Positions 3,626 through 19,911 of a stretch of DNA of 45,456 nt are shown in pieces. This DNA comes from an uncultured Bacteroidales bacterium. Lineage in GTDB: Bacteria > Bacteroidota > Bacteroidia > Bacteroidales > CHK158-818. A model generated the notes under the pieces. The model made no database searches and was not told the DNA's origin. It was given only the letters and a program-made list of their open reading frames with translations. Numbering within the stretch: the first letter of the stretch is position 1; each line of letters opens with the position of its first letter. The DNA is taken from NCBI GenBank assembly GCA_949300615.1, contig CASGEW010000013.1:1-45456 (forward strand), read 5' to 3'. A program made the position numbers and the translations under genes.

Positions 3626-5671
3626 TTATTCCCTGTCATTGGTAACCGTTTCCATATATCTGTTTTCCCAGGGGCCAATGGATTCAAACGGTATGGGTAA
3701 GAGCCCGAAACGTTGCAAAAGAGCACTATCCAGGTAGTAGTCGAGCCCGACATCATCTGCTGTATTGGAGGTAACAACGCTATTGTTTTGCAACACATTG
3801 CTCCCGTTCTCCCGTAAGAACAATCCGTTACAATCTACCACCAGATTATCGGAAACAAAGTTCCGGTCGGCATGCGCTTTTATATCTTCGTTCAACTCCG
3901 GATAACGGGTTTTGTACAACTCGGAACTGATATCGACATCCTCATACAACTCCTTTTGTTTCTGGGGTGATTCCAACGAGCTTTTCCACCGATCGCCCCA
4001 CGGGGTAAAGCTAACTGCGGCAAAGCATTTATAAAACAGATTGTTCTCTACGTGATTGTCTTTTCCCCCGTGTATCTGGACAGCCCCGAAAATAACCGAG
4101 CCGCACTGTTCAAATACATTGCCATACACCTTGGCTCCGGAAATCATGTCGTCCAAACGGACGCCTGCCGCGCCATTGTGGGTTCCTCCTACGATATGGC
4201 GCCAATGGTTGTAACGAACCACAATACCCCGGTAGGTAGGATTCGACCACATATCCATGCCCCCCTGATCATCGCTCTCCTTTACCAAATCGAAAAATTG
4301 GTTGTACTCTATCAGCACATCATTCCCGTTAATACGTAAAGCCGAAGAGGTAGAGCCCTGGAACAGGTTGTGCCGGATGGAGAGACCCGCCCCGTCGAAA
4401 AGTACGGCCGGCTCATAGGTATGTTTAAAGAGCGAGAAATTCTCAACGATTGTATTCTCCACCACATATCCGGCCGGATCAAGGCTCTTGCGGTCTCCTC
4501 CGCGGGCTACAATTCCACTGCATCCCAACTCCTGCAACAAGCACCCATCAACGGTATGGTTCTTCCCATCGGTCAGGTGTAGCGCATCGCATCCGAACTG
4601 GGCGATACGGCAATCTTTCAACCGGACATTCTCCCCTCCTGCAACATCGATTGCCGAGCAACGGCCGCCCCGGAAAGAGAGGCCATTCAGGGTCAGGTTG
4701 TCAAAGTTCGATACCGACAACATATACGGAGCACTCAATACGGAAACCGTAACGAAATCCGATTTCCGATCGAACGCCTCGGGAGCGTACCAATACAAGA
4801 TACCCCTGTCTCTATCCACGTAATACTCTCCCGGAGCATCGAGCTCGCACAACAGGTTCAACCCATAGTAGCGGAATCCATCCCGGTATCCATAAGAATG
4901 GTCGGGCTTTTCAAGCGATATTTGATGCTTGACGGTATCTATTTCGGCTATTTTCTGGAAGGATTCGCTCCAATCCCAGTACCAATAACCGTTTAAACAC
5001 GCCTCCGGTTCCTCTATCCACCGGTTGATACGGGCATCCTTATATTCAAAAACGCCCTCTTTGGTCCCATGACAGTTAAGCCATGTCGGAGGTAGGGTTG
5101 TCGCTCCCAATGCTTTCCCGGCGATGGTAAACTCTCCGTTCGGCCAACGGGCCAGTTGTTGTCGTTGTCCCTGCCAATAGAGGTCCAGTCTGTCTTCGCG
5201 CTCTATCAGCGTTCCGAACGATTCGATACCGGCCTTTTTCAAATCGGCCTGCCAGATTTTTCCTCTCACCTCCGGGGACAGACGATCCAACACAGAGCGG
5301 TCGGTCACCCGCTTCCACCTTTTTAGCTGGACGTCTCCGGTCAAAACAGGCGTTTCACCCGGATAAGCCGCCAGCTCCAACGGGGCCTCCGACCCGTTTC
5401 CCGACAACGACAACGTCTCCTCTACCGGATACACGCCGTCTCTAAAATAGAGCTGTACCTTTATGCCGGGATTCTCCGCCCGAAATGCTTGTACCTTTTT
5501 TATTGCATGGGCTACGGTTTTCCAAGGACGTTGTTCGGTTCCCGGGGCCTTGTCGCTCCCTTGGGGCGACACAAAGAAATCGGCTGACTGTTGTGCAAAA
5601 GCCAACGTAGGGATCGTCCAATACAGAGATACCACGATCCCTACGACATACCATACGCGTGAAATTTTCAT
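3626..5671 (-). CDS. Secreted right-handed parallel beta-helix protein, likely carbohydrate-active
   Basis: This 681-residue exported protein has a signal peptide (hydrophobic to about residue 26, ending AFAQ). A DFFVSPQGSDKAPGTEQRPW segment follows at about 31-50, typical of the first turn of bacterial beta-helix proteins, and the middle is rich in N-x-(V/I/L)-x-(N/D) repeats such as VRLKDCRIAQFG, HTVDGCLLQELG and LSIRHNLFQG, as expected for pectin-lyase-like solenoids. An inserted domain at about 110-280 (LTGDVQLKRWKR, YWQGQRQQLARWPNG) resembles the layout of GH141-like beta-helix glycosidases. That family match is my inference; no catalytic residues could be assigned. It lies downstream of the secA terminator and upstream of the GNAT gene. 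I saw no promoter box before it. Confidence 0.8.
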   Translation of the reverse strand: MKISRVWYVVGIVVSLYWTIPTLAFAQQSADFFVSPQGSDKAPGTEQRPWKTVAHAIKKVQAFRAENPGIKVQLYFRDGVYPVEETLSLSGNGSEAPLELAAYPGETPVLTGDVQLKRWKRVTDRSVLDRLSPEVRGKIWQADLKKAGIESFGTLIEREDRLDLYWQGQRQQLARWPNGEFTIAGKALGATTLPPTWLNCHGTKEGVFEYKDARINRWIEEPEACLNGYWYWDWSESFQKIAEIDTVKHQISLEKPDHSYGYRDGFRYYGLNLLCELDAPGEYYVDRDRGILYWYAPEAFDRKSDFVTVSVLSAPYMLSVSNFDNLTLNGLSFRGGRCSAIDVAGGENVRLKDCRIAQFGCDALHLTDGKNHTVDGCLLQELGCSGIVARGGDRKSLDPAGYVVENTIVENFSLFKHTYEPAVLFDGAGLSIRHNLFQGSTSSALRINGNDVLIEYNQFFDLVKESDDQGGMDMWSNPTYRGIVVRYNHWRHIVGGTHNGAAGVRLDDMISGAKVYGNVFEQCGSVIFGAVQIHGGKDNHVENNLFYKCFAAVSFTPWGDRWKSSLESPQKQKELYEDVDISSELYKTRYPELNEDIKAHADRNFVSDNLVVDCNGLFLRENGSNVLQNNSVVTSNTADDVGLDYYLDSALLQRFGLLPIPFESIGPWENRYMETVTNDRE

Positions 5672-13295: not shown

Positions 13296-14360
13296 TTATC
13301 TATTGTTTTCTATCCAGTTGACAATCCATTGGCCTACCTCCCTGGTCCCATATTTGGCTCCGCCTTCGACCTGAATTTCTGGGGTACGTACATGGGCATC
13401 CAAACTGGCATCTACGGCCCGGCGAACCAACTCACCTTCTGCCTGCAATCCAAAGTATTCGAACAACATGGCTACGCTGAGTATCTGTGCCAACGGGTTG
13501 GCGATGTTCAGTCCTTTGGCCTGGGGCCATGAGCCATGTATGGGTTCAAATACGGGTGTGCTCTCGCCGGTAGAGGCCGAAGGCAACAACCCCATGGAAC
13601 CGGTAATGCACGAACCTTCGTCAGTCAAGATGTCTCCAAAGGTATTTTCGGTTACCATGACGTCAAAGAAAGTGGGTTCCTGAATCATACGCATGGCGGC
13701 ATTATCCACATACATATAATCGGTCGTTACGTCGGGATAGTTCGGAGCCATCTCCTGCGCCACCTTCCGCCACAGCCTACTGGATGCCAATACGTTGGCC
13801 TTATCTACCACGGTCAGATGACGCCGACGCCGGCGGGCATACTCATAGGCTACCTTCAAAATGCGTTCTACTTCAGGACGGGTGTATTTGTTGGTATCGT
13901 AAGCCATATCGTCGCCTTCGTGTTTTTCACCGAAATACATTCCTCCGGTCAACTCGCGGATACAGATAAAATCGGCTCCTTTGACCAGTTCGTCTTTCAA
14001 CGGCGATTTGTGTACCAAACAAGAGAAGGTCTGTACCGGACGGATGTTGGCAAAAAGCCCCAACTTCTTACGCATGGCCAACAGTCCCTGTTCGGGACGT
14101 ACCTTGGCTGCAGGGTCATTGTCGAACCGGGGATCGCCCACGGAAGAGAAAAGCACGGCGTCGGCTTCCCGACAAATGCGATAGGTCTCTTCGGGGAAAG
14201 GATCGCCCACTGCATCGATGGCAGCAGCCCCTACAAGCGCCTCCTTGCAGGTGACTTCATGTCCAAATTTTTTGCATACGGCCGTCAGGACGGCTACGCC
14301 CTGTACGGAAATTTCGGGCCCGATACCGTCGCCCGCAAGAACAGCAATGTTCAGTTTCAT
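13296..14360 (-). CDS. leuB: 3-isopropylmalate dehydrogenase
   Basis: LeuB oxidises and decarboxylates 3-isopropylmalate to 2-oxoisocaproate with NAD in leucine synthesis. At 354 residues it has the usual length. Visible motifs: GDGIGPEI near the N terminus, the substrate-binding [12 protein letters not shown] segment, VDKANVL (catalytic Lys), [23 protein letters not shown] with metal-binding Asp residues, and [11 protein letters not shown] in the NAD-binding region. It is the last gene of the operon, 22 bases after the citramalate synthase-like gene and before a strong terminator. The same enzyme can act on beta-methylmalate, so it may also serve isoleucine synthesis by the citramalate route. 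Confidence 0.97.
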
Positions 14361-14382: not shown

Positions 14383-15906
14383 TTAATTTTCTATTTTATT
14401 CAGCATTTTCATGGTGGCTTTGATAGCCGCTTCTGTCTGGTCGGCATCCAAGCCTCTGGTTTTAAAGGTCTGTCCCTGATGTTCCCATGTAATGACGGTC
14501 TGCACAAAGGCATCGGTACGGCCTCCCGGAGGAATATCCACCGTATAATCGACCAACATGGGGAAGGGTCGTTGCAACTGCTCCTTATAGACCTTGCGCA
14601 ACGCCTTTACAAAGGCGTCGTACTGTCCATCTCCGAAAGAGGTTGATTCGTACTGCTCGCCATTGATTTCGATTTTCAGGATAGCTACCGGATGCAACCC
14701 TTGCGCCAGCGAAAGCGAATAGTTGAGCAAATGTATCTTGTGCTCCTGCTCGTCGTGTTTCAAGACATCGGAGATGATGTAAGGCAGATCGTCCTGTGTA
14801 ACCAGCTCTTTTTTGTCGCCCAGCTCGATGATACGCTCGGTTACCTTGCGCATCGAGGCTTCGTCGAGGTCGATACCCAACGCTTCGAGATTTTTACGGA
14901 TGTTGGCCTTTCCCGAGGTTTTCCCCAGGGCATATTGGCGGGTACGGCCAAAGCGTTCGGGCAACAGGTCGTTATAATAAAGGTTGTTCTTGCTGTCGCC
15001 ATCGGCATGCACCCCGGCACACTGGGTAAAGACGTTGTCGCCAATGACGGGCTTGTTGGCCGGGATACGTACCCCGGAGTAGGATTCGACCAACCGGCTC
15101 ACCCGGTTCACCTTGGACTCGACGACTGAGGTGCGGGCCTTCAACTGGTCGTGCAATACGGCCAGTACACTCGACAAGGGGGCGTTGCCGGCCCGCTCGC
15201 CCAACCCGTTGACGGTACAGTGGATACCCTGTACACCCGCCTTGGCCGCCGAATAGGCGTTGGCTACGGAGAGATCGTAATCGTTGTGGGCGTGAAAGTC
15301 GAAATGCAGTTGCGGATAGCGCGTTACCATCGTCCGGCAATAATCGTACGTATTGTAGGGGTTGAGCACGCCCAGCGTATCGGGCAACATGAACCGCTTG
15401 ACGGGCTCGTGCTGCAAGGCGTCTACCATCTGGAAAACGTACCCGGCATCGGCCATACCATTCGACCAATCTTCGAGATAGAGGTTGACCTCGATACCGG
15501 CCCGGGTAGCCCTCTCTATTTCGCGCCGGATGTCGTCGATGTGCTCCTGGGGCGTTTTGTGCAACTGCTCACGGCAGTGCCTCAACGACCCTTTGGCCAA
15601 TAAATTGACCACCGAGGCTCCGGCCTTGACGATCCAACTGATAGAGACACCTCCGTCGATAAAGCCCAGCACCTCGATACGCGACAACAGATCGCGTCGC
15701 CGGGCCCAGTCGCAGATCCGCTGTACGGCGTGGAACTCGCCGTCGGAAACCCGGGCCGAAGCTACCTCGATACGATCTACTTTAAGCTCGTCCAGAAGCA
15801 ACCGGGCGATGCTCAGTTTCTCCTGCACGGCAAACGATACGCCGGAGGTCTGCTCGCCGTCGCGCAACGTAGTGTCCATTATCTCTATCTGCATACCTGC
15901 TGCCAT
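14383..15906 (-). CDS. Citramalate synthase-like / second 2-isopropylmalate synthase homologue
   Basis: The 507-residue enzyme belongs to the DRE-TIM (HMGL-like) Claisen-condensing family. Motifs: [13 protein letters not shown] near the N terminus, EVASARVSDGE, FHAHNDYDLSVAN (metal-binding HxH) and NGLGERAGNAPL, then a C-terminal LeuA-type regulatory domain (about 370-500). It differs from the LeuA in this operon, which has HCHNDLGMA. By position and divergence it most likely makes (R)-citramalate from pyruvate and acetyl-CoA for isoleucine; 2-isopropylmalate synthesis is the alternative. ATG 15906 is chosen, 12 bases after the leuD stop; an in-frame ATG at 15894 is also possible. The longer open frame reaching 16002 lies inside leuD and is not used. 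Confidence 0.85.
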   Translation of the reverse strand: MAAGMQIEIMDTTLRDGEQTSGVSFAVQEKLSIARLLLDELKVDRIEVASARVSDGEFHAVQRICDWARRRDLLSRIEVLGFIDGGVSISWIVKAGASVVNLLAKGSLRHCREQLHKTPQEHIDDIRREIERATRAGIEVNLYLEDWSNGMADAGYVFQMVDALQHEPVKRFMLPDTLGVLNPYNTYDYCRTMVTRYPQLHFDFHAHNDYDLSVANAYSAAKAGVQGIHCTVNGLGERAGNAPLSSVLAVLHDQLKARTSVVESKVNRVSRLVESYSGVRIPANKPVIGDNVFTQCAGVHADGDSKNNLYYNDLLPERFGRTRQYALGKTSGKANIRKNLEALGIDLDEASMRKVTERIIELGDKKELVTQDDLPYIISDVLKHDEQEHKIHLLNYSLSLAQGLHPVAILKIEINGEQYESTSFGDGQYDAFVKALRKVYKEQLQRPFPMLVDYTVDIPPGGRTDAFVQTVITWEHQGQTFKTRGLDADQTEAAIKATMKMLNKIEN

Positions 15907-15917
15907 TCTACGACGTT

Positions 15918-16508
15918 TTATTGACGGGCTTTTTCCCACTCTTCTATTTTTGCCTTGTTGCTGAGCAGGAAGTCGATGTCGTCGTAACCGCTCAACAGGC
16001 AATTCTTCTTGTAGGGGTTGATGTCGAACCGTTCTTGTTGACCCGTCCGGTTGTTGGTAATGGTTTGGTTTTCCAAATCGACCGTTACCGTGGTGGCGGG
16101 ATCATCCTCTATGGCATCGAACAGCTCTTTTAAAAACCGCTCTGATACGACTACCGGCAAAACGCCGTTATTGAGGGCGTTGTTTTTGAAGATGTCGGCA
16201 AAAAAGCTCGACACGACCACCCGGAAACCGTATCCGCCTACTGCCCACGCGGCGTGTTCGCGGCTGGAACCGCTGCCGAAATTCTTACCGGCAACCAACA
16301 CCGAACCGCTGTAACGGGGGTTGTTCAACACAAAGGTCGATACTTGGTTGCCGGCCTTGTCGAAACGCCAGTCGTAAAAGAGGTTGTTGCCGAACCTTTC
16401 ACGCGTGGTGGCTTTCAGGAAACGGGCGGGGATTATCTGGTCGGTATCCACGTTCTCGATGGGCAACGGGACACAAGTAGAGGTTAAGGTCTTGAATTTT
16501 TCTATCAT
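15918..16508 (-). CDS. leuD: 3-isopropylmalate dehydratase small subunit
   Basis: LeuD pairs with LeuC to isomerise 2- to 3-isopropylmalate. The 196-residue length is normal. The swivelling domain is recognisable by [17 protein letters not shown] near residues 17-33, [20 protein letters not shown] (the mobile loop) and [21 protein letters not shown]. It lies between leuC and the citramalate synthase-like gene, in the same operon, with a 57-base gap to leuC and 11 bases to the next start. With LeuC it could also dehydrate citramalate. Confidence 0.96.
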
Positions 16509-16565: not shown

Positions 16566-17960
16566 TTACATCAAATCGCGCGGGTCGGTGATCTTTCCGG
16601 TTACGGCTGCGGCTGCGGCAACCAACGGACCGGCCAGGATGGTGCGCGCCCCGGGCCCTTGCCGCCCTTCGAAATTACGGTTCGAGGTAGATACGGCGTA
16701 TTTGCCGGCCGGCACCTTGTCGTCGTTCATGGCCAGGCAAGCGGAACAGCCGGGCTGACGCAGGACGAATCCGGCCTCTTCCAATATCTTGTCCAACCCC
16801 TCGGCCCGTATCTGTCTCTCTACCGCCCACGAACCGGGTACCAACCAGGCGGTAATGTGTTCGGCTTTTTTGCGTCCCTTGACAAATTGGGCAAATGCCC
16901 GGAAATCTTCTACCCGGCCGTTGGTGCAACTGCCCAGGAAGACGTAATCGACCGGTTTCCCCAACAACGTCTCGCCGGGGGCGAACCCCATGTAGTCCAA
17001 CGATTTCCGATACGAGATTTTTCCGGCTTCGTCCACCTCGTCGAGCGTCGGGATGGTACTGCGGATACCCATTCCCATACCGGGATTGGTTCCGTACGTT
17101 ACCATGGGCTCGATGTCGGCGGCATCGAAGGTTACCTCTTTGTCGAATACGGCATCGGGGTCGCTCTTCAACTCGCGACAACGGTCTACGGCCTTGTCCC
17201 ACGCTTCGCCTTGGGGAGCAACATCGGGTCCCTTGATGTAGGCAAAGGTGGTCTCGTCGGGGGCAATCATGCCTCCGCGTGCACCCATCTCGATGCTCAT
17301 GTTGCAAACGGTCATGCGTTCTTCCATCGAGAGGTCGCGGATGGCCTCTCCGGCAAACTCTACAAAATAACCGGTGGCTCCGCCGGTCGTCATGCGCGAG
17401 ATGACGTACAGGGCGATGTCTTTGGCCGTAACGCCTTTTTTCCGTTTCCCTTCGACGTTGATGCGCATCTTCTTGGGCTTGGGCTGCAAGATACATTGCG
17501 AGGCCAACACCATCTCTACCTCGCTGGTACCGATGCCGAAAGCTACGGCTCCGAATGCGCCGTGCGTGGAGGTGTGGGAGTCACCGCATACGATGGTCAT
17601 GCCCGGCTGCGTCAATCCGTTTTCAGGGCCGATAACGTGGATAATACCGTTACGGGGATTGCCCAACCCCCAAAGCGTGAGGCCGAACTCCTGCGCATTG
17701 CGGGTAAGGGTCTCTACCTGATTCCGCGAAACCGGATCGGCAATGGGCTTGTCCTGATTCAGCGTGGGAATGTTGTGGTCGGGCGAACAGGTGGTCTGCT
17801 GCGGACGGAACACCTGCAACCCCCGTTCCCGCAAACCGTTGAAGGCCTGCGGACTGGTTACCTCGTGGCAATAATGACGGTCGATGTACAGTTGCGTGGG
17901 ACCGCCCTCTACCTGCTGTATCACGTGCGCATCCCAGATTTTATCAAAAAGGGTTTTCAT
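16566..17960 (-). CDS. leuC: 3-isopropylmalate dehydratase large subunit
   Basis: LeuC is the 464-residue aconitase-family large subunit carrying a [4Fe-4S] cluster. Visible motifs: [13 protein letters not shown] at the N terminus, [42 protein letters not shown] and [10 protein letters not shown]; the last two supply the three cluster Cys residues. It forms the isomerase with LeuD, encoded next. The start ATG lies 32 bases after the leuA stop. A 504-residue open frame on the other strand over this gene is a codon-bias shadow. Confidence 0.97.
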
Positions 17961-17992: not shown

Positions 17993-19489
17993 CTATTTTA
18001 CGAATTTGTTGATACAGTCGATATAGGCTTCGACCGAGGCCGCGATAATATCGGTATTGGCACCGAATCCGTAATAGGTACGGTTGTCGTACTCTACCTG
18101 CATATGTACCTTACCGACGTCGTCGCTACCCTTGCTGATGGCCTGGATGGTAAACTCTTTCAATACCATGTGGCGGTCGATAATCTTTTTCAGGGCGGAT
18201 ATGGCGGCATCTACCGGGCCGTTGCCGCTGGCGGCAGCCTCGAACTTTTCGCCGGCAATGTTCAGGCCTATACTAGCTACCGGACGGACTCCTACTCCGC
18301 TGGTTACTTGCAGATAGTCGAGCTTGATGCGGTGGTTCTTGCTGCGGTCGGCTCCTGCCAGCAGCAGGATATCGTCGTCGTTGATATCTTTTTTCTTGTC
18401 GGCAAGTTTCAAGAACTCTTCATACACCTTATCCAGCTTCTCCTGATCGAGGCTTACGCCCAATACAGACAGGCGGTTTTTCAATGCGGCACGTCCGCTG
18501 CGGGCCGTGAGCACGATGGAGTTGTCGTCGATGCCGACATCGTGCGGGTCGATGATCTCATAGGTCTGCACATTTTTCAAAACTCCGTCCTGATGGATTC
18601 CCGACGAGTGGGCAAATGCATTCTTTCCCACAATCGCCTTGTTGGGTTGTACGGGCATATTCATCAGGCTCGATACCAAGCGGCTGGTCGGATAGATTTT
18701 TTGGGTATTGATGTTAGTCTCGATCTGAATGTCGTGGTGGCACTTGATGATCATGGCAATCTCTTCGAGCGAAGTATTCCCGGCTCGCTCGCCGATACCG
18801 TTGATGGTTACCTCTACCTGACGGGCTCCGTTGAGTATGCCGGACATGGTATTGGCCGTGGCCATCCCCAGGTCGTTGTGACAGTGGGTAGAGATTATCG
18901 CCTTGTCGATGTTATCGACGTGTTCCATCAAATATTTTATTTTGGCACCATATTCCGAGGGCAGGCAATACCCCGTGGTATCGGGGATGTTGACCACCGT
19001 AGCCCCGGCCTTGATAACCGCCTCGATGACACGGGCCAGGTATTCGTTGTCAGTACGGCCGGCATCTTCGGCGTAAAACTCTACATCGTCCACATACTTG
19101 CGGGCATACTTGACTGCGGCGACGGCCCGTTCGATAATCTCCTCGCGGTTGGAGTTGAATTTGTATTTAATGTGCGAGTCGGAGGTCCCGATACCGGTAT
19201 GGATACGTTTATGCTTGGCATATTGCAACGCCTCGGCGGCTACATCTATATCTTTTTGTACGGCACGCGTCAAGGCACAAATGGTGGGCCATGTTACGGC
19301 CTTTGATATTTCTATTACCGAATTGAAATCGCCCGGGCTGGATACCGGGAAACCGGCTTCTATTACATCCACGCCCAACATTTCGAGCGCTTTGGCCACT
19401 TGAATCTTTTCTACGGTATTCAACTGGCATCCCGGCACCTGTTCACCATCACGAAGGGTGGTATCGAAAATAAACAATCTGTCTGTCAT
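17993..19489 (-). CDS. leuA: 2-isopropylmalate synthase
   Basis: LeuA condenses 2-oxoisovalerate with acetyl-CoA, the committed step of leucine synthesis. The 498-residue protein starts [20 protein letters not shown] and has [25 protein letters not shown] (metal-binding HxH), [14 protein letters not shown], and the [11 protein letters not shown] loop. A C-terminal allosteric domain (about 370-498) contains [10 protein letters not shown], where leucine feedback is exerted in the family. It is the first gene of the operon and is preceded by a promoter, leader peptide and attenuator, so expression should respond to Leu/Ile supply. Confidence 0.97.
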
Positions 19490-19524: not shown

Positions 19525-19560
19525 AAAAAACCTTTCTCCTGCCAAAGTGAGAAAGGTTTT
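19525..19560 (-). terminator. Attenuator terminator upstream of leuA
   Basis: AAAACCTTTCTC (19527-19538) and GAGAAAGGTTTT (19549-19560) form a perfect 12-base stem with a 10-base loop. On the minus strand the stem ends in a T run reaching 19525. It lies between the leader peptide and leuA, ending 35 bases before the leuA start. The loop side (plus-strand AAGTGAG 19545-19551) is complementary to the end of the leader ORF, allowing an alternative antiterminator. Confidence 0.9.
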
Positions 19561-19576
19561 CATATCTTATCATCCC

Positions 19577-19658
19577 CAGGATATTGCGCACCGGCCTCAC
19601 TTCCTATCGAAAAAAATCGTTAGAATACCAATTATTAGACCTTGTAGCAAATATCCTG
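19577..19658. promoter_or_regulatory. Alternative RNA-pairing segments of the leu attenuator
   Basis: Plus-strand CAGGATATT (19577-19585) and AATATCCTG (19650-19658) are perfect 9-base complements. In the RNA the first leader codons can thus pair with sequence after the leader stop. CTCACTT (19596-19602) overlapping the leader stop is complementary to AAGTGAG (19545-19551) in the terminator. This gives mutually exclusive structures of the type expected for ribosome-mediated attenuation. Confidence 0.65.
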
Positions 19659-19668
19659 AATATTTCAT
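19597..19668 (-). CDS. Leu/Ile-rich leader peptide of the leu operon
   Basis: A 23-codon ORF lies between the leu promoter and the attenuator. An A/G-rich GGAAAGAAA precedes its ATG. The middle reads LLQGLIIGILTI, with four Leu (TTG and three CTA) and four Ile codons within 12 residues, then FFDRK and stop. The repeated CTA codons recall the rare Leu codons of enteric leu leaders. Ribosome stalling here would disrupt the 9-base pairing formed by codons 4-7 and favour readthrough into leuA. Confidence 0.8.
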   Translation of the reverse strand: MKYSGYLLQGLIIGILTIFFDRK

Positions 19669-19719
19669 TTTCTTTCCGTATCAACGAAGGGACTCATTTA
19701 CCCCCCTGGTTTTGCGTTG

Positions 19720-19749
19720 CAAAGATAGAGATAGTTTTTTATCCACAAA
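19720..19749 (-). promoter_or_regulatory. Promoter of the leucine operon
   Basis: On the minus strand TATCTTTG (19727-19720) has TTTG (19749-19746) with an 18-base spacer. The predicted start near 19714 places the leader-peptide ATG about 46 bases downstream and leuA about 225 bases downstream. The sequence above it (19750-19900) is AT-rich with nothing else recognised. Confidence 0.8.
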
Positions 19750-19911
19750 AGAAAATCATAACTTTTTCGTCAAAAAAAATTTCAAAATATCATTTTATCA
19801 TCGTTCGTTATTGATAAATGAAAGATTTACGCTTTACAAACAACGCTCAATCTAACCCTGAATAACCCCAAACGCACTTAAAGACAGAGCTAAACCCAAA
19901 AGTTTTTGGTT

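Follow-up and report, generated by a model that had tools for sequence, protein, structure and literature searches.

The attenuators of the enterobacterial leu, ilv, his, trp and phe operons share a leader ORF that is rich in codons for the cognate amino acid, an antiterminator/terminator pair and the use of ribosome position as the sensor. In Staphylococcus aureus, a leucine-rich attenuator peptide precedes ilvD and isoleucine acts via CodY (PMC5794164). In Actinobacteria, a LEU element and Leu-rich leader peptides are located upstream of leuA, and the LEU element is a pseudoknot or alternative hairpin in which the Shine-Dalgarno box of leuA takes part in the base stem (PMC1262725). Within the phylum Bacteroidetes, to which the DNA described here belongs, leader-peptide-like features are reported upstream of amino-acid operons in Flavobacterium psychrophilum (PMC9723704) and are mentioned generally for sORFs of B. 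thetaiotaomicron (PMC7366714); the relevant main-text passages of these two papers carry no leuA leader, pairings or codon logic. A description of a leuA leader or attenuator in Bacteroidetes was not found in the main texts of the open papers searched.

The window, the whole stretch of 45,456 nucleotides that was analysed, carries on its minus strand a set of attenuator elements that precedes leuA-leuC-leuD-cimA-leuB, and it is very probable that this operon is under the control of a classical ribosome-mediated transcription attenuator that senses both charged tRNA-Leu and charged tRNA-Ile. The elements, in the direction of transcription, are the following:

19720 to 19751, minus strand: promoter of the Bacteroidetes type, TTTTG (about -33) and TATCTTTG (-7 element, 19727-19720)
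19597 to 19668, minus strand: leader ORF MKYSGYLLQGLIIGILTIFFDRK, 23 codons, stop TGA
19650 to 19658, minus strand: region 1, 5' arm of the 1:2 helix, formed by early codons of the leader, CAGGATATT
19650-19615, minus strand: regulatory Leu/Ile run of the leader
19596 to 19603, minus strand: antiterminator strand A, GAAGTGAG, 8 nt, overlapping the leader stop codon and complementary to T5
19577 to 19585, minus strand: region 2, past the leader stop, 3' arm of the 1:2 helix, AATATCCTG
19525 to 19561, minus strand: intrinsic terminator, 12-bp stem (19560-19549 / 19538-19527) and T-run of six T's (19530-19525)
19544 to 19551, minus strand: T5, CTCACTTT, the antiterminator partner of A, with its first bases within the terminator 5' arm
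19489, minus strand: ATG start of leuA

As expected of an attenuator, a short leader ORF enriched in codons for the operon products lies between the promoter and leuA, an intrinsic terminator lies between this ORF and the first structural gene, and a mutually exclusive antiterminator (A:T5) shares bases with the terminator 5' arm. A scan for sigma-70 promoters found none, and the promoter fits instead the Bacteroidetes TTTG / TAnnTTTG type, with TTTTG about 20 nt upstream of the -7 element and a predicted transcription start at about 19709-19715. Regions 1 and 2 are exactly complementary over 9 bp, and the helix between them encloses both the Leu/Ile run and strand A. Within A, the sequence AAGTGAG (19602-19596), which has the leader stop TGA inside it, complements CTCACTT (19551-19545) in 7 bp with one further G-U pair. 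The T-run of the terminator ends 35 nt ahead of the leuA ATG; a simple terminator scan missed this hairpin because its loop limit of 8 nt is below the actual 10-nt loop. The folding z-score of the attenuator region in the window is -2.4. An earlier note on this DNA had claimed a promoter, a 23-codon leader with four Leu (three of them CTA) and four Ile codons in 12 residues, a 9-base pairing of early leader codons with sequence after the stop, a 7-base antiterminator pairing across the leader stop and a 12-base terminator 35 bases before leuA. The leader, the 9-base pairing and the terminator were recovered exactly where and as it had placed them, the antiterminator pairing was found and grows to 8 when the G-U is counted, and the promoter is present, as one of the Bacteroidetes and not the sigma-70 type.

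The 12-residue run of the leader (LLQGLIIGILTI) holds four Leu codons (TTG, CTA, CTA, CTA) and four Ile codons (ATA, ATT, ATT, ATT). CTA is the rarest Leu codon of the window genes (9/434, 2.1%), yet it accounts for three of the four Leu codons here; in the leaders of relatives, 37% of Leu codons are CTA and 81% of Ile codons are ATT. The window has 485 ORFs that start with ATG and are 12-45 codons long; at least 8 Leu/Ile per 12 residues occur in three of them, and a terminator hairpin follows just one of these three, the present leader. Conservation of frame and codons, together with the rare-codon bias, supports the view that the leader would be translated. Other small ORFs overlap these elements: a mini-ORF of 10 codons, MSPFVDTERK (19697-19665, minus strand), has a stop that overlaps the leader ATG (ATGA), is missing from the congener (G002) and is probably due to chance, while two ORFs that start at 19573 and 19563 and overlap the terminator were treated as by-products.

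Regions upstream of leuA were gathered from 80 named loci, from the other two genomes in the genus, from some 100 more Bacteroidales genomes and from a class-wide sample, and were passed through a strict filter of at least 7 Leu/Ile/Val in 12 residues, a terminator hairpin and distance. The filter was passed, with leader and terminator, by 106 Bacteroidales leuA loci, the leader being chosen partly by its Leu/Ile/Val density and, between candidate ORFs, also by the A:T5 score. These loci span B. fragilis (MNQSFIHILLCGIIILLAKVGGSECRA), P. vulgatus, Prevotella-like and more distant families, and include the congener G002 (L114), in which the leader is MIYSDYLLQGLIIDILTIFVDRK and the terminator is nearly identical; the assembly of the congener genome G001 contains no closely matching leuA. 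Of 105 homologous leaders, 98 have a TAnnTTTG element no more than 90 nt upstream of their ATG; among shuffled sequences the figure is 6.6%. Filter failures include leuA within an ilv operon, short upstream DNA and a visible leader with a hairpin missed by the finder. At L202, L204 and L211 leuA is inside an ilv operon, and three f93 genomes (L192, L194, L199) have Leu-rich ORFs with the terminator undetected and were left out. The class-wide search outside Bacteroidales, where detection is weak, gave no credible leuA leader among the loci retrieved. It is possible to read the leader in terms of nascent-peptide arrest, in which a specific peptide (HILLCGIIILL in many Bacteroides) would sense the free amino acid in place of a stall caused by uncharged tRNA, and the H, C and G of the run are indeed conserved in many Bacteroides and Phocaeicola leaders. 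However, this is very unlikely: the His codon falls within the 1:2 helix, H, C and G are missing from the window leader and from most other families, and codon identity varies by operon.

In B. fragilis (L001) and P. vulgatus (L025), an rRNA operon precedes the leu leader, with some 0.5-0.6 kb between its 5S gene and the leader. Other amino-acid operons of the genome under study also carry leaders. Before ilvD (L220, G000:C2), the leader MISAQLHLNSLSVMLALNVVVVGEGERYVAAL has four consecutive Val codons, and GGGAGAAAGG complements CCTTTCTCCC of the terminator. Before hisG (L249:1183-1360, plus strand), the leader MKRMIIAATLHHKHHHHLAR has six His in 10 residues and is followed by a terminator; before trpB (L217:1167, plus strand), MKTSLFNAYWWRCLQLQKS has Trp codons in tandem, with the terminator AAGGCCTGTCG...CGACAGGCCTTTTTTT. 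The prephenate dehydratase gene pheA (L250, minus strand, 1177 and 1328) has tandem Phe/Tyr-rich leaders (MKNFSFAYYFFFYFYFYGKK; MVDMKTNERFFFYYFFYFMP...), each with its own terminator. A leader of this kind was not seen at thrA of the same genome.

Pairing was assessed in a 36-sequence alignment of homologues. For A:T5, 92% of cells are paired and 5 of 10 pairs are changed on both sides, with slid versions at 36-64%; for the 1:2 helix, 75% are paired and 11 of 14 pairs are changed on both sides, with slid versions at 31-59%; and for the terminator stem, 91% of cells are paired. When each strand is matched with the partner from another species, complementarity drops from 8.06 to 6.36 +/- 0.17 for A:T5 (53 divergent loci) and from 7.78 to 6.20 +/- 0.11 for 1:2, both falls being well beyond permutation scatter and both contrasts partly reflecting sequence relatedness. 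In more distant families A and T5 both differ and their complementarity is kept, for example CTGAGAATGGT/GCCATTCTCAG and TTAGAGTGAG/CTCACTCTAA. The conserved AAGTGAG is read in frame 0 at 14 loci with the stop inside it (the window among them) and at one locus with the stop before it, in frame 2 at 32 loci and in frame 1 at one locus, and its retention across three reading frames indicates selection on RNA pairing and not on the peptide. That the RNA at the leader end is conserved and the peptide is not is the most telling single fact of this analysis.

A tRNA- or ligand-binding leader RNA, that is a T-box or riboswitch, would likewise make use of a terminator/antiterminator pair such as the one found here, with the ORF incidental to control of the terminator. 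This is extremely unlikely, for the region has no Rfam match in the window at the gathering threshold or at E up to 1, and codon content follows operon content, as set out below. Furthermore, at ten loci, either homologous or analogous, the attenuators gave no Rfam match at the gathering threshold, and the 36-sequence alignment contains no conserved core beyond the ORF, A, T5, the 1:2 helix and the stem.

Ribosome-mediated attenuation makes a specific prediction of how the RNA would fold in each state. With leucine and isoleucine plentiful, the ribosome would reach the stop codon of the 23-codon leader and sit on A, preventing A:T5, so that the terminator would form and transcription would stop 35 nt before leuA. 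With either amino acid scarce, a ribosome stalled in the Leu/Ile run would mask region 1 and break the 1:2 helix, leaving A free to pair with T5 before the 3' arm of the terminator exists; the terminator would be pre-empted and the operon would be transcribed in response. In the absence of translation, the 1:2 helix would enclose A and termination would be the default, a prediction that is clear in the window and variable in relatives. For the 106 loci, the nascent RNA as far as T5 was folded under constraint, with a ribosome footprint imposed, which gave a mean probability of A:T5 of 0.92 with the ribosome stalled mid-run, 0.08 with the ribosome at the stop codon, where the low value follows by construction from the assumed footprint, and 0.43 without a ribosome. 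The corresponding values for the window are 0.93, 0.00 and 0.00. Ribosome position is predicted by this modelling to select the structure. If the ribosome stalls at the final Ile codon of the window leader, the probability is 0.00 and termination is predicted to stay on, which implies that effective stalls would be those at early and middle codons. For the congener, the probability without a ribosome is 0.97, the 1:2 helix failing to suppress A:T5, and the no-translation default is thus not conserved. The full-length equilibrium fold of the window favours the terminator in every state; given that the terminator is the more stable once its 3' arm has been made, antitermination must be kinetic, as in classical attenuation.

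The genes downstream of the attenuator are the following:

17993 to 19489, minus strand: leuA, 2-isopropylmalate synthase, the first regulated gene (TIGR00973 and NF002086 above cut-off)
16566 to 17960, minus strand: leuC, isopropylmalate dehydratase large subunit (TIGR00170 above cut-off)
15918 to 16508, minus strand: leuD, isopropylmalate dehydratase small subunit (TIGR00171 above cut-off)
14383 to 15894, minus strand: cimA-like gene (top model Leptospira (R)-citramalate synthase, 650 bits)
13296 to 14360, minus strand: leuB, 3-isopropylmalate dehydrogenase (TIGR00169 above cut-off)

The cimA-like gene scores below the strict 950-bit cut-off of the citramalate model, and its top LeuA model reaches 349 bits. 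In the citramalate route, LeuCDB serve isoleucine synthesis as well, and the presence of this gene ties the operon to isoleucine. The leader run holds two or more Ile in 96 of the 97 operons that contain cimA (means of 4.3 Ile and 4.0 Leu). Leu-only runs are found in the genomes without a cimA match (G027, MNTTLLSLSLTSGLTLSK; G224, MQAMNNLNMYLFLLLDLCKGREVGI), and Leu-only or nearly Leu-only leaders where leuA is on its own and cimA lies at another place in the genome (G165, G257, G221; MQSNYLLPFLLWTLLLNNLREKHGCL; MKTFCLDILLLLLVSVR). In G257 (L248, reverse complement 4860-5237), two tandem leaders, MNNLFVIIIISILLVIKMN and MNCFSLHIIVVIILLLC, precede an ilvD...ilvC-leuC-leuD-cimA-leuB operon; both contain Ile, Val and Leu, and each has its own terminator and complementary strand. 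G006 (L207), in which leuACDB are together, cimA is elsewhere in the genome and the leader keeps Ile, is an apparent exception to a rule drawn solely from the presence of cimA within the operon, and is explained by the retention of leuCDB in the leu operon. The remaining exception is G243 (L193), an 87% complete genome in which no cimA was found. The Ile contrast of 96/97 against 0/5 (1/6 with G243) gives a nominal Fisher p below 1e-6 for lineages that are not independent and for a Leu-only group that is small, post hoc and includes two members below the automatic leader threshold. Across these operons, the leader codons appear mostly to track the operon products, with Ile where the operon serves isoleucine and otherwise essentially Leu only.

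The run is hydrophobic and its ORF widely conserved, and it might be argued that it encodes a functional small membrane peptide, the hairpin being the ordinary terminator of a small-protein gene. There is next to no likelihood of this: the residues switch with the pathway, from Leu and Ile to Leu only, Leu and Val (ilv), His (his), Phe/Tyr (pheA) or Trp (trp). The C-terminus is read in three frames over a conserved RNA, and covariation links the end of the leader to the terminator arm. The attenuator reading of the earlier note is strengthened by the recurrence of leader, A strand, terminator and promoter before Bacteroidales leuA with covarying pairings, and its suggestion that Leu and Ile codons fit a two-product operon gains from the CimA-like gene, the near-uniform Ile content of cimA-containing operons and the mostly Leu-only contrast. 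Loss of the ORF and pairing in relatives, which the note had named as counting against attenuation, was looked for and not seen, the 106 loci keeping leader and terminator.

This raises the tentative possibility that in Bacteroidales a single attenuator design, with A at the leader stop nested in the 1:2 helix and sometimes in tandem, is the main control of amino-acid operons, and that its codons are re-written to match the output: Leu and Ile with the citramalate route, Leu only where leuA is alone or cimA is absent, and Ile/Val/Leu for ilv. If so, transcription-translation coupling would work in a phylum that makes little use of Shine-Dalgarno sites. Since the mechanism needs a ribosome close behind RNA polymerase, a leader reporter would provide a direct test of coupling in Bacteroidetes. 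The codon/operon rule may furthermore allow the function of cimA-like genes to be read from the leader. On the evidence of sequence, a regulatory mechanism that no Rfam family matches can provisionally be assigned to the synthesis of branched-chain amino acids in a dominant group of gut bacteria.

The mechanism itself is long known, and it is the arrangement, with A at the leader stop and nested in the 1:2 helix, and the codon/operon rule that deserve testing. In comparison with the S. aureus ilvD attenuator (PMC5794164), the window belongs to another phylum and its leader itself holds Ile codons. A Leu-rich leader ORF before leuA is common to the Actinobacteria (PMC1262725) and the window; nevertheless, the window carries a terminator and its pairings are different ones, within the leader and to the terminator arm, and the predicted window fold contains no pairing of the LEU type, from the Leu codon run to the leuA ribosome-binding site. 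With the enterobacterial attenuators, the window shares a rare Leu codon and several branched-chain codons in one leader. It differs from them in that its sequence is unrelated, its promoter is of the Bacteroidetes type, cimA is in the leu operon and the leader codons are for Ile as well as Leu, and in that the antiterminator strand is located at the leader's own end or stop codon, with a separate 1:2 helix around it.
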